From contig NZ_JAAHHG010000014.1 of the NCBI RefSeq assembly GCF_010692555.1, forward strand, positions 1 to 32,657: 32,657 nucleotides of DNA. The letters are read 5' to 3'. Under the pieces are notes generated by a model. It was given only the letters and a program-made list of their open reading frames with translations. It made no database searches and was not told the DNA's origin. Shown here in pieces: positions 18,196-27,722 of this stretch; within the stretch, counting starts at the first letter, position 1; each line of letters starts with the position of its first letter. The position numbers and the translations under genes are program-made. The DNA comes from Okeania sp. SIO3B5. GTDB taxonomy: Bacteria > Cyanobacteriota > Cyanobacteriia > Cyanobacteriales > Microcoleaceae.

Positions 18196-19458
18196 TTAAA
18201 AAAACTGAGGAAATCTGGACTTTACATCACTTAATTCGTTCGTGCTTAAATAAGGTATTAATTGACTAACGTTGTCGAGTTCTAACTCAATGCCAGCGTT
18301 ATCGTAATAAAGCTTATACCATTCCTTTGCTGCATCGTAACCTGCCGTTGCAAGTTTGCCTTTGTCTTCTGGGGTCAAATTGAAATTATATGTACTATAC
18401 CCCAAGTCTGGTATTTGAATAGTACGCTGTGCATATTTGGCGTAAGTACCTTGATCAGTTGCCTTGGAGGCATTGACGTAATCCACTCCAACACATAAAC
18501 TAGCTACTTTATTTTTAACCCCTTTAATTAAGGAAGCAAACCATCCCGTGTTATCTTCCTTAGCTCCTTCCCAAAAGATCTTCCGCATCTCCTCTTCGCT
18601 ATCCACTTTTAGACCAAGAGTACAAAGGTTTTGACCGTATTCACCTATAGTGAGCTTTATCTGATCTTGCTTAAGATAGGGAGGACGATCAAAAATCCCC
18701 ATAGGGTAGTTATCTAAACAACCGCCATCCATATACTCTTTTCCTTTATACTTGACACTTTTAAAGAACCAAGGTAACGATACAGAAATTCTTACAGCTA
18801 AGTCAACTGGCATATCAGGTGTGGTCTGATAGCTAAAAATCTCCAATGTCTTGTCGGTGTAATTGGTTCCTGTAAAAGCCATGTCCTTAATACCTAGTTT
18901 AGGGAATTTTTTGCCTAATTCTTTAAGTTCTTGGAACGTCAAGTGTCCGCCTTTTTCCTTTAACATTTTTGCAAGCGTAAGCCTTGAGCTGTTTTCTTTT
19001 CTGGCAATTGTATAAGCTTCCTCAACCCGCTGATTAATAACACGTTGTATCCATTGTTGTAGTTTATCCCCAAGATAGAGACCTCTCCCTTGTTGTGAAG
19101 AACCAAATAAAAGATTTGATAAACCTTTTTTGGTCTCAGATAGCTTACCGAAAATTCCCGATACTTGATGATCTTGAACATCGGTAAAGTCGTTAATATC
19201 TTGTTTATAAACAATCTTTTTTATTTCATCAGCACTGTACCCTAATCCAGCAACCAAGGCTGTCATAGCTCCTGCAGAACTACCACCTACATTTTTAGCC
19301 GAACCTAAGATACCCTTTTCTTCCAAGAGTTTGTTTGCACCTACATAAACAAGTCCTTTCGGTCCTCCCCCCTCAAAAATCAGATTTTCAATAGGCGCCT
19401 GCGCTACAATAGCGCCAATTTTACCGTTAGGTTTAGGGTACATATTATCTATTTGCAT
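18196..19458 (-). CDS. Patatin-like phospholipase
   Basis: 420-aa Ser/Asp-dyad acyl hydrolase predicted to cleave membrane phospholipids. The oxyanion-hole motif GGGPKG is at residues 30-35, the nucleophile elbow GSSAG has Ser61, and the second catalytic residue Asp244 is in DGGCLDNYP. There is no signal peptide. The length exceeds a bare patatin domain (about 200-250 aa), so the C-terminal 150 residues are extra and unassigned. A good ribosome site (AAGGAGAATAAGC) precedes the ATG. It lies downstream of the protease/precursor/methyltransferase genes on the same strand, but gaps with mobile elements separate them. Upstream there is a fragment of the neighbouring 182-aa gene, a sign of local duplication. 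Confidence 0.92.
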   Translation of the reverse strand: MQIDNMYPKPNGKIGAIVAQAPIENLIFEGGGPKGLVYVGANKLLEEKGILGSAKNVGGSSAGAMTALVAGLGYSADEIKKIVYKQDINDFTDVQDHQVSGIFGKLSETKKGLSNLLFGSSQQGRGLYLGDKLQQWIQRVINQRVEEAYTIARKENSSRLTLAKMLKEKGGHLTFQELKELGKKFPKLGIKDMAFTGTNYTDKTLEIFSYQTTPDMPVDLAVRISVSLPWFFKSVKYKGKEYMDGGCLDNYPMGIFDRPPYLKQDQIKLTIGEYGQNLCTLGLKVDSEEEMRKIFWEGAKEDNTGWFASLIKGVKNKVASLCVGVDYVNASKATDQGTYAKYAQRTIQIPDLGYSTYNFNLTPEDKGKLATAGYDAAKEWYKLYYDNAGIELELDNVSQLIPYLSTNELSDVKSRFPQFF

Positions 19459-19920: not shown

Positions 19921-20157
19921 CTAAACAATGCCACAAGTAGCAAAACACATTGCCCTTGACAGCCCAGACAATATCCGACACCCACAATCAACCTGCTCTG
20001 AAAATTTAACGGGATCGTTTAGATTCACATTAGAACCCCGCACAAAACTATATTTTTGTTGCAAATTGCCTTTACTGTCTCGAAACTTTACTAAAACAAG
20101 TTCCGGATCTAGAATTTCTCTCCTGTTTACAGGTAAAGATTGGTTGGGAAGTTTCAT
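19921..20157 (-). CDS. Candidate peptide precursor 1, Cys-rich core
   Basis: 78 aa from the ATG at 20157, which has AAAGGAGTAGTT just before it. A longer frame from 20208 lacks this. The N-terminus MKLPNQSLPVNR fits the LPxQxxPVxR-type start shared by the other precursors here and similar to cyanobactin precursors. A longer middle part (residues about 13-55) is charged. The C-terminus carries four Cys in VDCGCRILSGLSRAMC and FATCGIV. It lacks a GxEAS-type cleavage motif. The C-terminal part aligns with that of precursor 4 (SG-L-S-R-A-M-C-F-A against TG-M-A-R-N-M-C-M-A). It probably encodes a secreted or processed peptide. The modification is unknown. Confidence 0.72.
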   Translation of the reverse strand: MKLPNQSLPVNRREILDPELVLVKFRDSKGNLQQKYSFVRGSNVNLNDPVKFSEQVDCGCRILSGLSRAMCFATCGIV

Positions 20158-20737
20158 AACTACTCCTTTTGTTTTGTTAAATAGCAGCCAGCAGTCAGCG
20201 GTCAGCATTAGGACTTTTTTTTACGTTGAGTTAGGGATTTAACCCCGACTTAACCATCCGGCTTTTAGAAGCCGGGGATTTAACCCAAGGTAATTTCAGT
20301 TATCAGTTATCAGTTATCAGTTGTCAGTACCTCTGGCTTCAGTCAGAGGCTTGAAATACTGAATTAAAAATTTTTCATCCCCTTGAAAGGCGAGGCTTGA
20401 CACCTTATTTTTTGGTCAAAAAGCTGATAGCTGATAGCTAGTTGAGAATAGCAATACAACATCAGAGGTTGTATTAATCGACAAAGTGAAACTAAATCAT
20501 TGCAGTATTTTCTACGATGATTTACCTCAGCCTTGACTTTCAATTTGGCATTGCATAATTGCGGGATGATTTTGTCAGAGAGCAAAAAGCATAATCCCCG
20601 TGTCTCCGTGTCTCCGTGTCTCCCTGTCTCCGTGTCTCCGTGTCTCCGTGTCTCCGTGTCTCCGTGTCTCCGTGTCTCCATGTCTCCGTGTCCCCGTGTC
20701 AGCCGAAATCATCCCAGTATTCAGCAACGCCTTCAAT
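20158..20737. repeat. Repeat-filled gap between methyltransferase and precursor 1
   Basis: 20211-20290 is homologous to 10942-11020 and contains the CCGGCTTTTAGAAGCCGG hairpin. 20293-20325 is a CAGTTAT array. CCTCTG...CAGAGG forms a small hairpin at 20332-20352. 20597-20700 is a long TCTCCGTG array (about 13 units), flanked by GGGATGATTTTG (20563) and its inverse GAAATCATCCC (20705). Short open frames across it are repeat artefacts. Confidence 0.8.
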
Positions 20738-21595
20738 TTAGTGGCGCTTTAGTAAAATAAAGCCAGACATCCTCCGCCACATTTCCCAATGTTCCGGCGT
20801 TTGTAATTGAGCCAGCAGCGATTTAGGCAAGACTTCCCGATGTAAGCGCTGGCCTTCTTCCAGCAGCGATCGAAATTCAACGCTCTTCCAACCATATTGC
20901 CGAAAGAATTCAGTTCCTTCTTCAGGGGCAAATTTCAAAGTTGCTTCACCGGAATTAAGCGAACTATTTACGCTTTTCTGGAAATATCGCAACGCACTTG
21001 GCGAGGCAAGATCTGTTAACCACCACTGAAACTGGGGCTGTGCATACAAGTCAGTCGCCAGTGTAGCAACTTGTTCGACAGTCATATAAATCAGCAGCCC
21101 TTCCGTAACTACCAGTCCTGCTTTTGCTGCCATACCGACACTCTGAAAGAAAGTCTGGCGAGCAATAATGTCAGTAATATCTAAAGCAACTGATTCCAGA
21201 ATACACCTTGATGGCACACCAGCAAGTTTGTCAGCTTTGTAAGCCAGGACAACGGGCAGATCGCATTCGTACCATCGCAGGGAAGTCGGTAGAGGCAGTC
21301 GATAAGGTCTTGTATCCAAACCCGCTCCCAAACTCAGCACTGCATCAACGCCATTTTCTGTAACAGTCCGCAGAATCAACTCATCCATCACGCAAGTACG
21401 CACCGCACAGCCTGCTGCTCCTGCTTTTCCTCCTGGCATTGCCTCGACAAGCTTTTTGCCCCGCTCCCCAGCTAAAATTTGGGCGTGGGCATCCTGGAAC
21501 AAAGAATCTGAACGCTCAGTTTCCAAGGCCCGATAGGTTGCAGTCAAGAAGGCTGTATCATAAATAGATTCAACAGGTAAAGAAGTCAGATTCAT
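20738..21595 (-). CDS. LCM-family SAM-dependent O-methyltransferase
   Basis: 285-aa class I methyltransferase of the leucine-carboxyl-methyltransferase (LCM, PF04072-type) family. The SAM site is VLSLGAGLDTRPYRL (about residues 86-100), with acidic WYECDLP after the second strand and LVVTEGLLIYMT around 160-171, all family hallmarks. Eukaryotic members methylate the C-terminal Leu carboxylate of PP2A. Bacterial ones act on diverse carboxyl or hydroxyl groups. It is embedded in the precursor series on the same strand, so a peptide substrate is plausible, for example the free C-terminus of precursors ending in Leu or Ile (inference). By eye it is more G+C-rich than the flanks, which hints at acquisition together with the protease. 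Confidence 0.88.
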   Translation of the reverse strand: MNLTSLPVESIYDTAFLTATYRALETERSDSLFQDAHAQILAGERGKKLVEAMPGGKAGAAGCAVRTCVMDELILRTVTENGVDAVLSLGAGLDTRPYRLPLPTSLRWYECDLPVVLAYKADKLAGVPSRCILESVALDITDIIARQTFFQSVGMAAKAGLVVTEGLLIYMTVEQVATLATDLYAQPQFQWWLTDLASPSALRYFQKSVNSSLNSGEATLKFAPEEGTEFFRQYGWKSVEFRSLLEEGQRLHREVLPKSLLAQLQTPEHWEMWRRMSGFILLKRH

Positions 21596-21666
21596 TGTGC
21601 GGTTTTTAGTACGAGTTCATTCAGGGATTGACTTGGCATTCAGGGTTCTGCAACTTTTTAAGAAAT

Positions 21667-21699
21667 GCTCGATGCTTGTTTTCCATACAACCACCGAGC
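21667..21699 (-). other. Intercistronic hairpin r3
   Basis: On the minus strand GCTCGGTGGTTGT pairs with ACAAGCATCGAGC. It is homologous to r1 and r2. The base changes keep pairing: GCTCGG/CGAGC here against GTTCGG/CCGAAC in r1. Confidence 0.65.
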
Positions 21700-21770
21700 A
21701 AGTTATTTGGTTGCAGTTTCCTATTGATATAGGATAGGATGGTATGGTTATGATTAATGCTTTGGGGACT

Positions 21771-21805
21771 GGCTTGGTAGTTGTTTTACATACAACCACC
21801 GAACC
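21771..21805 (-). other. Intercistronic hairpin r2
   Basis: On the minus strand GGTTCGGTGGTTGT pairs with ACAACTACCAAGCC around a short loop. Lies between precursor 2 and the methyltransferase gene. Confidence 0.65.
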
Positions 21806-21858
21806 AACCATAGGGCTACTGTTTGCTAGCAACCTAGACTAGGTTGCTTCGCTCAGAG

Positions 21859-22026
21859 TTAGATCAGAGAAGTGAGAATTGGAGCAGCAATTGGAGCTAC
21901 ATGCTTGGCAATATCCAGAGCTGTGTTATACCAAGCGCTGGCTTCAACACCATTTTGCTCTGAAATTGCACCCGGAGTTAGAGTTAGATTCCGTTCGACG
22001 GGTGTAGATTGTTTGGGCAGGTTCAT
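21859..22026 (-). CDS. Candidate peptide precursor 2, amphipathic proline-hinged core
   Basis: 55-aa gene with an AAAAAGG-type ribosome site. Leader: MNLPKQSTPVER, matching LPxQxxPVxR, then NLTLTPGAISEQ and the motif GVEAS. After GVEAS the last 25 residues start AWYNTALDIAK and include AKHVAPIAAPIL. They would form an amphipathic helix with two prolines. PatE-type cyanobactin precursors have the same order: QPVxR near the start, then G(L/V)E(A/P)S directly before the core. There is no AYDG/SYDD-type macrocyclisation signal after the core, which ends in Leu-Ile. It is paired with precursor 3, whose sequence is clearly homologous. Confidence 0.78.
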   Translation of the reverse strand: MNLPKQSTPVERNLTLTPGAISEQNGVEASAWYNTALDIAKHVAPIAAPILTSLI

Positions 22027-22059
22027 AATTTTGCCTTTTTATCCTTAATGTTTTTAGAA

Positions 22060-22093
22060 CTTGTTCGGTAGTTGTTGACAACCACCGAACAAG
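22060..22093 (-). other. Intercistronic hairpin r1
   Basis: On the minus strand CTTGTTCGGT-G-GTTGT-CA-ACAAC-T-ACCGAACAAG is an almost perfect stem of 15 bp with one internal mismatch. Lies between precursors 3 and 2. It could act as a partial terminator or a stabilising end for the upstream message. Confidence 0.7.
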
Positions 22094-22152
22094 GAATGTT
22101 GTTACCGCTGTTTAGCTAGGCTGATTAACCAGGCTGATTAGCGATCGCTGAA

Positions 22153-22344
22153 TTACAGATGACTCACAACGTTAGCAGCAATGGGAGCTACTTTCTTAGC
22201 AACATCTAAAATGTGATCGAAGAACCCACTGGCTTCAATACCACTTTGGTCTGAAATTGCAGCTGGAGATAGACTCCTTTCCACAGGGGCAACTTGCTTA
22301 GGGAAGTTCATCATTTTAGGCGTAACTTGTTTGGAAATGTTCAT
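22153..22344 (-). CDS. Candidate peptide precursor 3, amphipathic proline-containing core
   Basis: 63 aa. The first ATG has AAGGAAAAGTA upstream, and the internal Met12 has none, so the longer form is preferred. The leader motif appears twice in tandem: MNISKQVTPKM, degenerate, then MNFPKQVAPVER. SLSPAAISDQS and GIEAS follow. The 24-residue tail starts GFFDHILDVAKKVAPIAA and ends in His-Leu. Like precursor 2 it should fold as an amphipathic helix, with Pro in the middle. It carries two Lys, two Asp and two His, so it is not strongly cationic. A GxEAS site directly before the tail suggests cleavage by the PatA-like protease (inference). Confidence 0.78.
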   Translation of the reverse strand: MNISKQVTPKMMNFPKQVAPVERSLSPAAISDQSGIEASGFFDHILDVAKKVAPIAANVVSHL

Positions 22345-22396
22345 TACTTTTCCTTGTTTTTTCTTGAGTGTTTACTTGTTTTGTGTCTCCGGATAC

Positions 22397-22444
22397 TTAC
22401 CACTGGTGACGTGGTACGTGTCCGGCCTGGATTGGCACTTTCAT
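22397..22444 (-). CDS. 15-codon ORF carrying only a leader-like motif
   Basis: ATG preceded by CAGGAGAAACTACG, as good a ribosome site as those of the real precursors. The product MKVPIQAGHVPRHQW matches the pattern (L/V)PxQxx-x-VxR that starts the other precursors and then stops after three residues. It lies between precursors 4 and 3. It may be a truncated precursor, a decoy or regulatory leader, or chance. Confidence 0.45.
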   Translation of the reverse strand: MKVPIQAGHVPRHQW

Positions 22445-22491
22445 CGTAGTTTCTCCTGTTTGAGTAATTTTTAATCGGTAATCACTGATTT

Positions 22492-22680
22492 CTAATAGGC
22501 AGCCATACACATATTCCTAGCCATACCTGTTAGCTTATAACAGTCATTAAAGTCAGAACTGCTGACACCTGAACTATCTAATAAGGGGGATGTATGGTTT
22601 AAATCCCGAAGTACGGGCTGAGATTGCTTAGGCAGATTATTCATCAGTATGGGCTGGGATTGCTTGGACAGATTATTCAT
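22492..22680 (-). CDS. Candidate peptide precursor 4, Cys-pair core
   Basis: 62 aa with a very strong ribosome site (AGGAGGAG seven bases before ATG). The leader motif is duplicated: MNNLSKQSQPIL, then MNNLPKQSQPVLR. DLNHTSPLLDSS and GVSSS follow, the position where precursors 2 and 3 have GVEAS/GIEAS. The last 20 residues DFNDCYKLTGMARNMCMAAY hold two Cys separated by ten residues. The end resembles precursor 1. It is the first precursor after the protease gene, separated from it by the disrupted MITE. Confidence 0.75.
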   Translation of the reverse strand: MNNLSKQSQPILMNNLPKQSQPVLRDLNHTSPLLDSSGVSSSDFNDCYKLTGMARNMCMAAY

Positions 22681-22725
22681 ATCAATACTCCTCCTAAATT
22701 TGGCAAATTTTTACAAGATTTTTAA

Positions 22726-23088
22726 TAGACATCTCCAAAAATCAAAAATAAAATCAATTCTTACCCAGAAATTATCAATTATTCCTCTCCCCTCCTGGGA
22801 GACATGGCTGTTTTAAAGTCCCGTAAGTTAACGATTTAGGGATAACGAGAGATGAGAAGATAGTGGAACAGTGAAATTAACCAAAATTTGCCGATTTTTC
22901 AGCAAAGTACGCGTCTTTAAGCTCTGAGAGAATCTGGTTCAACGCTACTTAAAAGCCTCGATCCCCGTGTCTGGTGTGTCTCCGCGTCCCCGTGTCTATC
23001 GAGAATGAAACAGCCCTGCCTCCTGGGAGGGGCTAGGGGTGGGTTCCCTGTTCCCTGTTCCCTGTTCCCTCTTTTCTGGAGATGTCTA
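22726..23088. mobile_element. TAGACATCTCCA-ended MITE, copy 2, split by a nested insertion
   Basis: The left part (22726-22801) and right part (23019-23088) together match the intact copy at 4301-4438. The TA-GACATCTCC ends are preserved on both sides. It lies between the protease stop codon and precursor 4. Confidence 0.8.
22802..23018. mobile_element. 217-bp insertion nested in the MITE, with target duplication
   Basis: Flanked by the direct repeat CCTCCTGGGAG (22791-22801 and 23019-23029), present once in the intact MITE. The ends CATGGCTGTTTT and, inverted, CAGGGCTGTTTC are 12-bp inverted repeats. No coding sequence. CAGGG-type ends and a target duplication of about 10 bp recall ISAs1-family elements (inference). 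Confidence 0.75.
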
Positions 23089-23109
23089 ATGAGATTATGC
23101 AGGATATTT

Positions 23110-25149
23110 TTAGTCAGACATAGACCAGGTACGCATCTGACCAATCGTGACTGGCATCATATCGCTCACATCCACAGTAAATCGAAATATTTTTTTTGCC
23201 CGGCGATCGTTCTCTGGATCGAAAAACTTCAGTTTGACATCCCAACAATCTGAATCCATCCGACAGATTGGGCTTTTTTCTGTCTCAATGCTGGCGAGCT
23301 GCATTCCCTTACCAGTTGCCTCAGTTAGTGCTTGTGCTGCTTGGAATGCATTTGTCGCTGCGAAATTGAGGGCGCGCTCATGGGATGTTTGACCCAGATT
23401 CCGAAATTCGTAGTACATCCGATTGAGAAATTCCTTCAGAGAAGCTCGCGTAGCTTCTTCCTGCTGATTAGCATGGGCTTGCTGATTAGCCTGGGCTTGT
23501 GGTGTAGCTGTTTGTGGTGTAGCTGTTTTTGCTGCCTCAACCGCCATTGATACCAATTGGTTAACATTCCACTCGTACATCCCCCGAACTTCTGGAACGA
23601 TCACAGGAACAACTTGTCCAGAAAATAACCTGACGCTCTTACCTGTCAATACCCCTGGAATTGAAACCCGGGAAACATATTCAGGATCGTCTTCTGGTTT
23701 GATCTGCCCCTTGAGAGCTGAAATCAAGTTGTGATAAGCTTGCTCGGTAAAAGCTCCACCAGGTTCAATTGCGTAAATGGGTGTTAGCTCTAGGTTTAAC
23801 GTCCAAATCAGTGATTTTGCTTCGTAGGAGCTTTGTTCGAGATAATCCACCATCTGGCTAAGAACGTATGGATTTGGCGGGAAAGGTGGCTCCCCTGCAA
23901 CATAAGGCATTAGCTGTTTAAAGCTGTCTCTACGAGCCTCTGTGCCGAAATCGTAACTAACTGTTCCCATCACATAAACTAGGGATTTTGCACCACCGTT
24001 ACAACCACAGTCTTCAGAAGCTACCACGCCACTAGGGGTGACAGCAGGTGTTGCTAGTTGGCTAGGCGTTACAGTCATTGTATTCTCCAAATTACTTACA
24101 GTTTCTGGGACAAGTTCAGATGTTATGACTTCTGCCACTATCTCGCCTGTATCTGCTAGCTGGTTGGCGGATGCCTCAAGATTGAAGTCAGTCGCCTCAC
24201 TAGGTTGAATCATTTCTTGCTCTAATTTTTCCTCAGACAATTCTTTTGTTCCTCCTTGTGATATTAAGGCATAAGCCTCTGGAATATTTAGACTTCCGAC
24301 CAAAAAGCGACGGCAATCTGAACCCGCTTCTGGGGTGCAAGGCAAAGCACTCTTAAGAATAGCCTCGCGGACGGCATTGGGGTCTGGCTTTTCACCACGC
24401 TGTAACTGCACACTCAGTAGCAGCGCCACAATTCCAGATACAATGGGAGTTGCAAAGCTGGTGCCGCTTTTGAGAGCAGTACCGCCCCCCGATGCTGCAC
24501 CCAAAATGTTTTCACCAGGAGCGAGAATGCCTTGGGTTTGATATGTCTCCCCCCAATTACTGAAATCGAAGGGCAATCCCTGTGAATTCATTGCACCCAC
24601 AGCCAAAACTGAAGGTAAGGCAGCCGGAACGTGAAGACACTGACACCCATCATTTCCTGTGGCAGCAACAATCAGAACGTTACTGTCGTTACAGAATTTG
24701 ACTGCTTTCGCCAGCATTGGATCTGCCTCTGTCCCTTGAGCAAGTTGACCCCCGCTAATATTAATTACATGGGCACCTGCTTCAACCGCTTGATTGATAG
24801 CGCGTGCGAGGTCTAGCTGGGAAAGGGAACCACTGCGATTATCGGAAAAGACTGGCACAATCAGTCCGCGGCAGCCAGGAGCAATACCGGGAACGTTATT
24901 GCCATGCTGACCGAAGATGATGCTGGCAATGTGGGTTCCGTGACTCGACATCCGCCCAACTGTAGCGTTCTCGGAAATTGTGGTTTGAACTCTGGTGAGG
25001 TTAGCACCGTCAAAGCAGGGATGAGATTGGTCTACTGGACCGTCAAGAATGGCTACACAGATTTGGGAGTTGCCTTTGGTCTCAGACCACAGTTGTTTGA
25101 GTCCCGGTAATTCTGAAATCTCAGTAACGTTTGTTTGTGTAGCTGCCAT
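23110..25149 (-). CDS. PatA-like subtilisin protease (PatA/PatG cyanobactin-maturation family)
   Basis: 679-aa S8 serine protease. The catalytic triad is visible: Asp36 (AILDGPVD), His70 (SSHGTH), Ser231 (SGTSFATP), with oxyanion Asn166 (ATGNDG). There is no signal peptide or propeptide. A linker (about 300-385) leads to the C-terminal domain found in PatA/PatG-type proteases (DCGCNGG...LVYVMGTVSYDFGTEARRDSF and, at the end, DVSDMMPVTIGQMRTWSM). The Asp-His spacing of 34 is short: it leaves no room for the capping-helix insertion of PatG macrocyclases, so hydrolytic leader removal like PatA is more likely than cyclisation. It is the first gene of the minus-strand series and probably driven by the 25235-25284 element. 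The substrates are inferred to be the downstream precursors with G-x-E-A-S sites. Confidence 0.9.
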   Translation of the reverse strand: MAATQTNVTEISELPGLKQLWSETKGNSQICVAILDGPVDQSHPCFDGANLTRVQTTISENATVGRMSSHGTHIASIIFGQHGNNVPGIAPGCRGLIVPVFSDNRSGSLSQLDLARAINQAVEAGAHVINISGGQLAQGTEADPMLAKAVKFCNDSNVLIVAATGNDGCQCLHVPAALPSVLAVGAMNSQGLPFDFSNWGETYQTQGILAPGENILGAASGGGTALKSGTSFATPIVSGIVALLLSVQLQRGEKPDPNAVREAILKSALPCTPEAGSDCRRFLVGSLNIPEAYALISQGGTKELSEEKLEQEMIQPSEATDFNLEASANQLADTGEIVAEVITSELVPETVSNLENTMTVTPSQLATPAVTPSGVVASEDCGCNGGAKSLVYVMGTVSYDFGTEARRDSFKQLMPYVAGEPPFPPNPYVLSQMVDYLEQSSYEAKSLIWTLNLELTPIYAIEPGGAFTEQAYHNLISALKGQIKPEDDPEYVSRVSIPGVLTGKSVRLFSGQVVPVIVPEVRGMYEWNVNQLVSMAVEAAKTATPQTATPQAQANQQAHANQQEEATRASLKEFLNRMYYEFRNLGQTSHERALNFAATNAFQAAQALTEATGKGMQLASIETEKSPICRMDSDCWDVKLKFFDPENDRRAKKIFRFTVDVSDMMPVTIGQMRTWSMSD

Positions 25150-26585: not shown

Positions 26586-27722
26586 ATGAGTTTTAAGATT
26601 CTTTGTCTAGATGGTGGAGGTATCCGGGGTGTTTTATCAGCCAAACTTCTGCAAGAGGTTGAAACCACTGTCAGAGAAAAAAAAGGACAAGAGTTACACG
26701 AATATTTCAACTTAATTTCTGGTACATCCACTGGCTCTATTCTGGCTGCGGGAGTTGTCTGTCAGATGAAAGCTAAAGACATGATTGATATCTACTTAGA
26801 AGAGGGAAAAAATATCTTTTTAGAGTCAGTACGTCAGCAGCGAAACTCTTTTCGACCTTCTACTATAATGCGAAAAATGATGGGGAGTTATGCCTTATAT
26901 CCCCACGAACAGGGAGAGCAGGGTTTGGCTAAAATATTGCAGAAAAAATTGATTCACCAAGAGTTGGGTTCTGCAAAAATTAGCGAGATCACGCGACCCC
27001 ATATTCTGATTCCTGCTTATGACGTTTATTCCCGAAATACAACGTGGTTTACTAATAATCCCCCCAATGCAGGATTATGGTATGACAATATCGAATTATG
27101 GAAAATCTGCACTGCCTCAGCTTCTGCTCCTACCTTTTTTCCCCCTTATGAACTTCCCTATAATGAAGAGGAAAATCTGCCTTATATTGATGGGGGAGTA
27201 TCGGCCAATAATCCCGTTTTAGTGGCGATCGCTCATGCCTTATTGATTGAAAAAAACAATGGACTAAATTTGAAGGATATTGCGGTCCTTTCTATCGGCA
27301 CTGGCAATACAACTTGTCCCTACAGTTATGAAGAAATCAAAGAATGGGGATTACTAGGTTGGGTGCAGCACATACCGGATATTTTTATGAATCCTGCTGC
27401 GAAAAATTCGCAGGATATCTGTAACCAAATTCTAGATAGTGTAGGGGGCGATATCCTGCGTTTGGATTTCGATCTTAATGATCGCTTAGAAAGGGAAAAA
27501 CAGCCCGGCAGAGTCAGAAAACTACTAGAAAAACCTCATAATAGATATATTAGGGATAAAAGAAACCACTATCAAGAAATAAATGAAGATATCGACGATC
27601 CTAATAATTGTCAATACTTGATCGATGCTGCTGAATGTTATCTTGACTGTGGGGATGTTTATTATCAGAAGCCAAGGGTTCCAGTGCGAGAGGCTCTTCA
27701 AAAGTTTATCGGAGCTCATTAA
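26586..27722 (+). CDS. Patatin-like phospholipase, DGGGIRG type
   Basis: 378-aa acyl hydrolase with oxyanion motif DGGGIRG (residues 9-15), nucleophile GTSTG (Ser48) and Asp202 in DGGVSANNPV. FNLISGTSTGSILA is typical of the patatin group that includes plant patatins and CapV-type bacterial phospholipases. No cyclic-nucleotide synthase or other CBASS gene is adjacent, so a CBASS role is not supported. No signal peptide. It differs in family type from the minus-strand patatin (GGGPKG), so the two are not recent duplicates. It lies between the secreted repeat peptide and the alpha/beta-hydrolase on the same strand. Confidence 0.93.
   Translation: MSFKILCLDGGGIRGVLSAKLLQEVETTVREKKGQELHEYFNLISGTSTGSILAAGVVCQMKAKDMIDIYLEEGKNIFLESVRQQRNSFRPSTIMRKMMGSYALYPHEQGEQGLAKILQKKLIHQELGSAKISEITRPHILIPAYDVYSRNTTWFTNNPPNAGLWYDNIELWKICTASASAPTFFPPYELPYNEEENLPYIDGGVSANNPVLVAIAHALLIEKNNGLNLKDIAVLSIGTGNTTCPYSYEEIKEWGLLGWVQHIPDIFMNPAAKNSQDICNQILDSVGGDILRLDFDLNDRLEREKQPGRVRKLLEKPHNRYIRDKRNHYQEINEDIDDPNNCQYLIDAAECYLDCGDVYYQKPRVPVREALQKFIGAH

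Follow-up and report, generated by a model that had tools for sequence, protein, structure and literature searches.

A PatA-type protease locus with cyanobactin-like leader signals in Okeania sp. SIO3B5, a candidate source of linear peptides

The stretch of DNA analysed here (the window) is an entire contig of 32,657 nucleotides (C46; NZ_JAAHHG010000014.1) from the 11 Mb draft genome of the cyanobacterium Okeania sp. SIO3B5. Its minus strand carries, in this order, a PatA-type protease, three small genes that begin with the leader motif LPxQxxPVxR (RSI), an LCM-type methyltransferase and a fourth RSI gene; a second signal, G-[V/I]-x-x-S ahead of the peptide core, is referred to as RSII. An initial annotation, made from the sequence alone, had proposed this arrangement of protease, small RSI genes and methyltransferase on one strand, and the family models TIGR03895, PF04072 and TIGR00027 confirm it. 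Its list of small genes was incomplete, however, since it overlooked a fifth conserved small open reading frame (ORF) at 22397-22444, here called the micro-ORF. Loci, genomes and contigs carry our handles L, G and C. The cluster consists of the following genes, with lengths in amino acids (aa) or nucleotides (nt).

23110..25149, minus strand: PatA-type leader protease, 679 aa, S8 domain and C-terminal domain of unknown function (DUF); TIGR03895
22492..22680, minus strand: pep1 precursor, doubled RSI leader, RSII GVSSS, core with CxxLxGxAxxMC loop
22397..22444, minus strand: micro-ORF, 15 aa, RSI-like, core-less, with AGHVPR motif, 100 nt upstream of pep2
22153..22344, minus strand: pep2 precursor, doubled leader, RSII GIEAS, amphipathic core GFFDHILDVAKKVAPIAANVVSHL
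21859..22026, minus strand: pep3 precursor, RSII GVEAS, amphipathic core AWYNTALDIAKHVAPIAAPILTSLI
20738..21595, minus strand: LCM-type S-adenosylmethionine methyltransferase; PF04072 E 5e-27, TIGR00027 107 bits (cut-off 93.55)
19921..20157, minus strand: PatB-like protein, RSI start, tail CGCRILSGLSRAMC; TIGR04220 E 0.0009

The window protease is PatA-like by hidden Markov model, PDB sequence match, catalytic triad and fold, and thus supplies the PatA-type N-terminal protease that belongs to a cyanobactin cluster. It scores 821.6 bits against TIGR03895 (cut-off 421) and contains the S8 domain PF00082 and PF18047/PF18065 (PatG_D and PatG_C). The triad D36/H70/S231 is invariant across 24 aligned protease sequences, the window's included, with an Asp-His spacing of 34 (32-35 in the other PatA-type rows). 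Its closest solved chain in a PDB sequence search is PagA, with 399 bits versus 201 for the PatG macrocyclase, and its predicted model (mean predicted local distance difference test, pLDDT, 72.3; predicted template modelling score 0.47) matches the folds of PagA (4h6w, Z 40.9) and of the PatG DUF (4uvq, Z 33.8).

A precursor locus lies beside this protease. Each of pep1 to pep3 has an RSI, an RSII and a core that extends to the stop codon, the leaders of pep1 and pep2 being doubled, so that a precursor with both signals, a further hallmark of cyanobactin clusters, is present in the window. As the initial annotation had stated, RSII occurs in three of the four RSI genes. The position of RSI genes next to the protease is not due to chance. 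In 58 protease loci (57 from a scan for genome contigs with the protease, plus the window), the zone in which an ORF starts between -200 and +4500 nt from the protease end on the same strand (245 kb) holds 78 RSI ORFs, counting canonical precursors and PatB genes, compared with 14 over the other 1,875 strand-kb, and the annotated LPxQxxPVxR genes beside the protease are thereby substantiated. At least one such ORF is found downstream in 40 of the 58 loci. Eighteen loci of the window's kind, termed PatA-only and picked when their RSI genes were already known, have 56 RSI ORFs in the zone, PatB-like genes and two protease 3'-end fragments (L017, L018) among them, and one elsewhere; RSII is present in 35 of these 56, against a mean of 3.0 and a maximum of 8 in 500 shuffles. 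An RSIII-like end (AYDG, SYDG, AGDDAE) occurs in none of the window cores, which run to the stop, in agreement with the absence of AYDG/SYDD-like C-terminal signals reported initially; RSIII is present in the canonical and anacyclamide-type precursors of the compared loci.

Canonical PatB also starts with RSI, and RSI alone is therefore no proof of a precursor. The fourth RSI gene, at first taken for a precursor, is instead a relative of the PatB family: it can be aligned with canonical PatB and matches TIGR04220 from start to start, at 18.8 bits, below the cut-off of 55. RSI starts of PatB-family proteins were seen at L008 853-1053 (minus strand), L030 13664 and L037 12998 (minus strand) as well as at window 19921-20157 (minus strand), and in several PatA-only loci PatB-family proteins are extended by a Cx10C tail. 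Two further loci show the range of RSI genes. L127 (G173:C83) has nine around one protease, with helical, Cys-containing and PatB-like products and no YcaO match. On a Gloeocapsa PCC 7428 plasmid (L183 6870-7578), a protease annotated as PatA/PatG family has as its neighbour a Cys-rich RSI precursor that the gene table consulted for the plasmid, a table with known gaps, does not list. Upstream are CAP-domain and crystallin-like genes, and an upstream ORF of L049 is similar by eye.

What distinguishes the locus from a cyanobactin cluster is the rest of its gene content. Neither a PatG macrocyclase nor YcaO was found on the window contig, whose only PatA-family gene is the protease and none of whose ORFs matched YcaO; PatF gave no match in an NCBIfam scan of 10 window ORFs, the other window ORFs and the rest of the genome lying outside that scan. 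PatC, which we take to be the second of two genes always present in cyanobactin clusters in addition to A, G and E, was detected by tblastn with one query in 8/8 controls and in 0/26 PatA-only loci (window and L069 in, L052 out). The lack of YcaO and PatG noted initially thus holds for the contig and fails for the genome, which encodes YcaO and PatA-family genes on other contigs.

The same architecture recurs in genomes without a YcaO match. YcaO gave no match in 6 of 17 genomes with PatA-only loci (L016, L017, L018, L046, L052, L069), five of them with one PatA-family match (E<=1e-60) and L069 with two pieces; three of the six are metagenome-assembled genomes (MAGs), and none of the 17 has a stated completeness. 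Among 388 genomes of the class, 29 have a PatA-family match (E<=1e-100) and 42 have YcaO. PatA-only loci are found in 10 of these 29, the loci of 17 having been inspected (G179 equals L052 and G367 equals L023 by shared coordinates). Five of the ten, all 99-100% complete (G386, G173, G054, G070, G179), lack a YcaO match and have one PatA-family gene each, which in G070 appears as two pieces of one frame; G386 combines a full LCM-type cluster with a single PatA-family match. YcaO is present in the other five, of which the window's genome is one.

The proteases of these loci also form a lineage. In a tree of 62 rows, whose 26 PatA-only rows include L052 and omit L069, a 29-row clade (SH-aLRT 98) unites 25 of the 26 PatA-only proteases with two Bacteroidota and two other sequences, and all eight proteases of LCM-type loci fall inside it. 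The clade sits beside the YcaO-associated PatA of Bradyrhizobium and Sphingomonas, is separate from canonical cyanobacterial PatA and from PatG, and takes in Terriglobia (Acidobacteriota), Geodermatophilus and a Streptomyces plasmid. PatA-only loci extend to Acidobacteriota and Actinomycetota, and what had been pictured as one odd cyanobactin locus is part of a wider, cross-phylum family. The two Bacteroidota loci of the clade have small downstream ORFs whose leaders are similar by eye only. YcaO, both PatA- and PatG-type proteases, and LAELSEE precursors occur together in cyanobactin-like loci of Pseudomonadota (L056, L057, L066; Bradyrhizobium and Sphingomonas). Among the open-licence PMC papers listed by literature searches, none was recognisable by title or abstract opening as dealing with PatA-only clusters.

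Protease, RSI peptides and LCM methyltransferase stand together in eight loci: L014-L019 among the 57 (from Okeania, Oscillatoria PCC 10802, UBA2566, two Roseofilum and Symploca), L126, and the window. The synteny to which the initial annotation had looked is thus present. In the seven other loci the methyltransferase is 69-94% identical to that of the window and lies downstream of the protease (83% in L126, from genome G386 of the same family), and among the 388 genomes, at E<=1e-40, an identity above 48% is reached only in G000 and G386. The gene adjoins helical-peptide genes in 8/8 loci; in L019 it lies between two helical precursors, about 3 kb from the protease. Searched with a profile built from the helical precursors, the 388 genomes gave matches in 16 at E<=0.01, most of them weak. 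A structure model of the methyltransferase built from eight sequences (mean pLDDT 41.5) was too poor for a fold search.

Further genes flank the cluster and, in part, travel with it.

26586..27722, plus strand: patatin-like phospholipase, possible accessory; PF01734, best NCBIfam match CBASS_lipase, 159 bits (cut-off 200)
18196..19458, minus strand: second patatin-like phospholipase, beside the cluster; PF01734
16422-16880, 17158-17820 and 28101-29345: matrixin-like, no-family and alpha/beta-hydrolase genes, respectively, in the cluster flanks

Copies of the first patatin, 51-94% identical, lie in the flanks of five of the six loci L014-L019 (not L015), and the remaining 51 loci yield a single 27% match (L053; Fisher p 8e-6, uncorrected for relatedness). 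L126 carries a copy as well, and a relative of 28% identity is found in L129. None of the 57 fetched loci holds a relative of the second patatin at E<=1e-6. The window's own genome contains six patatin matches, five above the cut-off, two of them beside the cluster. Of the matrixin-like, no-family and alpha/beta-hydrolase genes, L014 has relatives of all three close to the cluster, L018 of two and L017 of one.

The pep2 and pep3 cores are 24-25 residues long, Cys-free and about neutral, and their helical moments stand at the 100th and 99th percentile of shuffled sequences, respectively. The calculated [M+H]+ of the unmodified core and of its methyl ester is 2561.42 and 2575.44 for pep2 and 2662.50 and 2676.51 for pep3; for the pep1 core it is 2317.95, or 2315.94 with a disulfide. 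The moment, taken as the best of several windows per core with shuffles treated alike, reaches at least the 91st percentile in 11 of 13 listed Cys-free cores of LCM-type loci. Helical cores of these loci are 12-29 residues long and Cys-free; PatA-only cores overall mostly have 16-47 residues. The two helical cores, compared with PDB sequences, gave no match each at E up to 10. Curated models match 18 helical precursors at best with TIGR04446 (E 0.0003) and DUF5840 (E 9e-5), and 12 Cys-rich precursors with TIGR04446 (E 0.0014); the bit score, compared with the cut-off for the first member of each set, was below it or there was no match. The helical cores may resemble the helical peptides of frog skin.

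The product of pep1, the first gene after the protease, is of another type and ends in CxxLxGxAxxMC. The first peptides of a Streptomyces plasmid locus and of one in a Nocardioidaceae MAG have the same loop, a sharing between Cyanobacteria and Streptomyces that is also new here. PatB-like tails have it in the relaxed form CxxLxGxSxxxC, the loop of the window's PatB-like protein being similar to that of pep1. Twelve of 14 picked sequences contain the loop (absent from L020 and L064; shuffled mean 0.005), a pattern that was composed after viewing the sequences.

How cores may change is apparent from one clear case, in a pair of Roseofilum species. The sole helical precursor of L017 has a leader 98.8% identical to that of L018 pepA and a core of 53% identity; compared with L018 pepB its core is 80% and its leader 77% identical. 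The alignment has one large gap, flanked by an RSII-coding repeat, and together with the identities this indicates that leader and core were rejoined at RSII. Partial copies of the protease 3' end lie between peptide genes at L017 3493-3681, L018 12006-12194 and L062 3926-5080, those of L017 and L018 carrying an RSI start; they are probably scars of gene duplication.

The micro-ORF, which is new here, follows the pattern M-x-[V/I]-[P/A]-[I/M]-x-AGH[V/I]PR and encodes 13-35 aa in 14 copies from 13 loci (window 22397-22444, minus strand; L014 12466; L015 12268; L016 12265; L017 3887; L018 12400; L019 5907 and 7596; L023 12149; L050 11935; L053 13149; L126 7998; L128 2909, minus strand; L129 7365). 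Its start lies 85-123 nt ahead of the next precursor start in 14/14 copies, and in 8/8 LCM-type loci, of all start codons within 130 nt ahead of the first helical precursor, only that of the micro-ORF has a Shine-Dalgarno-like site. In these eight loci third codon positions are variable in 8/11 cases and the others in 6/22 (p 0.02), a test made on eight copies taken by position, a stronger earlier figure having used copies found by amino-acid pattern. Canonical loci gave one unrelated antisense match (L030) only, and none was found in L127, L130, L131 or L175-L182. To judge from its sequence, the micro-ORF product resembles an RSI without a core. No paper containing the motif was found among those listed from open-licence PMC text.

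Taken together, we consider it likely that the window holds a PatA-only processed-peptide cluster, in which the PatA-type protease cuts off the leader and linear cores are released. We propose the following model. The small precursors would share the leader signal RSI and the cleavage signal RSII (GV/IEAS), and the protease would cut after RSII to free linear cores, which would be neither heterocyclised nor macrocyclised. Those of pep2 and pep3 would form variable amphipathic helices, probably membrane-active, and pep1 would yield a conserved loop peptide, Cx10C, in which a disulfide likely bridges the two Cys residues. The LCM methyltransferase probably caps the C-terminal carboxylate of the helical peptides as a methyl ester, removing a negative charge; close copies of the enzyme are found in this cluster type only, which makes methylation plausible. 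As RSI is kept where there is no YcaO, another factor must read it, and the protease DUF is a shared candidate reader. In PMC4259220, however, the PatG DUF showed no binding to PatE by nuclear magnetic resonance. Membrane action and antagonism we infer from the amphipathicity, the variability and the linked patatin. Both the relation to cyanobactin precursors drawn in the initial annotation and a non-macrocyclic product of PatA processing are well supported by the PatA clade, by RSI and RSII, by the missing RSIII and by genomes without YcaO and with one PatA-family gene.

Several observations weigh against this model. The net charge of the cores is about 0, unlike that of classic cationic antimicrobial peptides, helical cores also occur in loci without an LCM gene (L020, L023, L053, L069), and no exporter or immunity gene was identified. 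Between the window and L014, where protease and LCM genes are 95.6% and 94.1% identical in DNA, the pep2 core (82.5%) does not differ significantly from its leader (90.6%; p 0.15), and the pep1 and pep3 cores are identical, as is the pep3 leader (100%). The L052 protease lies outside the PatA-only clade, and a single clade for all named PatA-only rows (29, with L052 in and L177 out) was rejected (p-AU 4e-7), which makes a second origin (L052) likely. In G133, a further PatA-only genome, a YcaO gene shares the contig of the locus at a distance of about 15 kb. The window organism itself has two YcaO genes on other contigs and additional PatA-family matches on C346 (over the cut-off) and C206 (365 bits, under the cut-off, at a contig end).

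These last genes make modification in trans possible in the window organism, by a YcaO or PatG encoded elsewhere and yielding ordinary cyanobactins; PMC4663559 describes RSI as directing heterocyclisation in patellamide-type systems. Against this stand the same architecture in genomes without YcaO and with one PatA-family gene, the lack of an RSIII-like end, and LCM-type helical cores of 12-29 residues that have no Cys, and we regard modification in trans as improbable. It is conceivable, if quite improbable, that no peptides are released and that the small RSI proteins instead regulate or inhibit the protease, or function with the leader still on. RSI occurs in PatB proteins too, and a variant of it in the core-less micro-ORF, as such a role would have it; RSII, the differing cores and the case in which a leader became linked to a different core at RSII are consistent with precursors instead.

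The locus might also be a decayed canonical cyanobactin cluster that has lost YcaO, PatC and PatG and retains its precursors as relics. Leaders of 15 of the 18 helical precursors do give weak matches to the anacyclamide model (best E 0.0003), and Tolypothrix L049, whose protease belongs to the PatA-only clade, keeps a PatG-type gene about 4 kb away and has a 387-aa ORF with one 29-residue match to the YcaO query. Decay is nevertheless difficult to reconcile with a gene content that is alike in eight loci with intact reading frames, a micro-ORF held at one spacing in 8/8 LCM-type loci, a separate protease clade with cross-phylum members and a core exchanged while the leader was retained, and appears very improbable to us.

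Is the cluster a cyanobactin cluster? According to PMC4663559, such clusters are defined by the genes A, G and E and by two further genes, one of them B, that are always present. Because PatG, PatC and RSIII were looked for and are missing, we do not file the window cluster as a cyanobactin cluster: it is real, conserved and outside the published definition. With cyanobactins such as patellamide and anacyclamide/piricyclamide it shares a PatA-family protease with a DUF, an RSI leader, RSII before a variable core, a PatB relative and several precursor genes, and it operates as the first half of cyanobactin maturation does. It differs in having no PatG macrocyclase, PatC, YcaO or RSIII, in cores of mostly 16-47 residues that are helical or Cys-rich, and in its protease clade.

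Leader-cleaved unmodified bacteriocins are likewise linear helical or disulfide peptides released by a protease, usually with double-glycine/C39 exporters, whereas the window uses an S8 protease with RSI/RSII. Aeruginosamide and viridisamide have in common with the proposed products a linear form and the idea of a C-terminal methyl ester (PMC4663559, PMC11285071), but have 3-5 residues, a thiazole and a bimodular methyltransferase-prenyltransferase (PMC4663559), in contrast to the LCM/TIGR00027 enzyme, longer cores and lack of azole machinery in the window. Aeruginosamide and LahSB are precedents for C-terminal methylation of ribosomally synthesised and post-translationally modified peptides; LahSB esterifies the C-termini of several lanthipeptide precursors and does not need the leader (PMC11285071). 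We liken LahSB to the window enzyme by the proposed reaction, and no lanthionine enzymes were among the families scanned, which covered part of the window ORFs.

Beyond the PatA-only cluster with its released linear cores, we speculate, tentatively and with more doubt than belief, about a cross-phylum class. In it one PatA protease, its DUF reading RSI, would release a loop peptide together with helical or Cys-rich peptides varied by recombination at RSII; the core-less micropeptide would regulate or load the protease; and, in the LCM branch, methyl-esterified helices would attack membranes together with the patatin. If the PatA-only reading is correct, the cyanobactin leader system would also make longer linear peptides by itself in several phyla, which would bear on the role of the conserved PatA/PatG DUF and of PatB, and PatA-only clusters would be a lead to helical and Cys-rich peptides of variable sequence.

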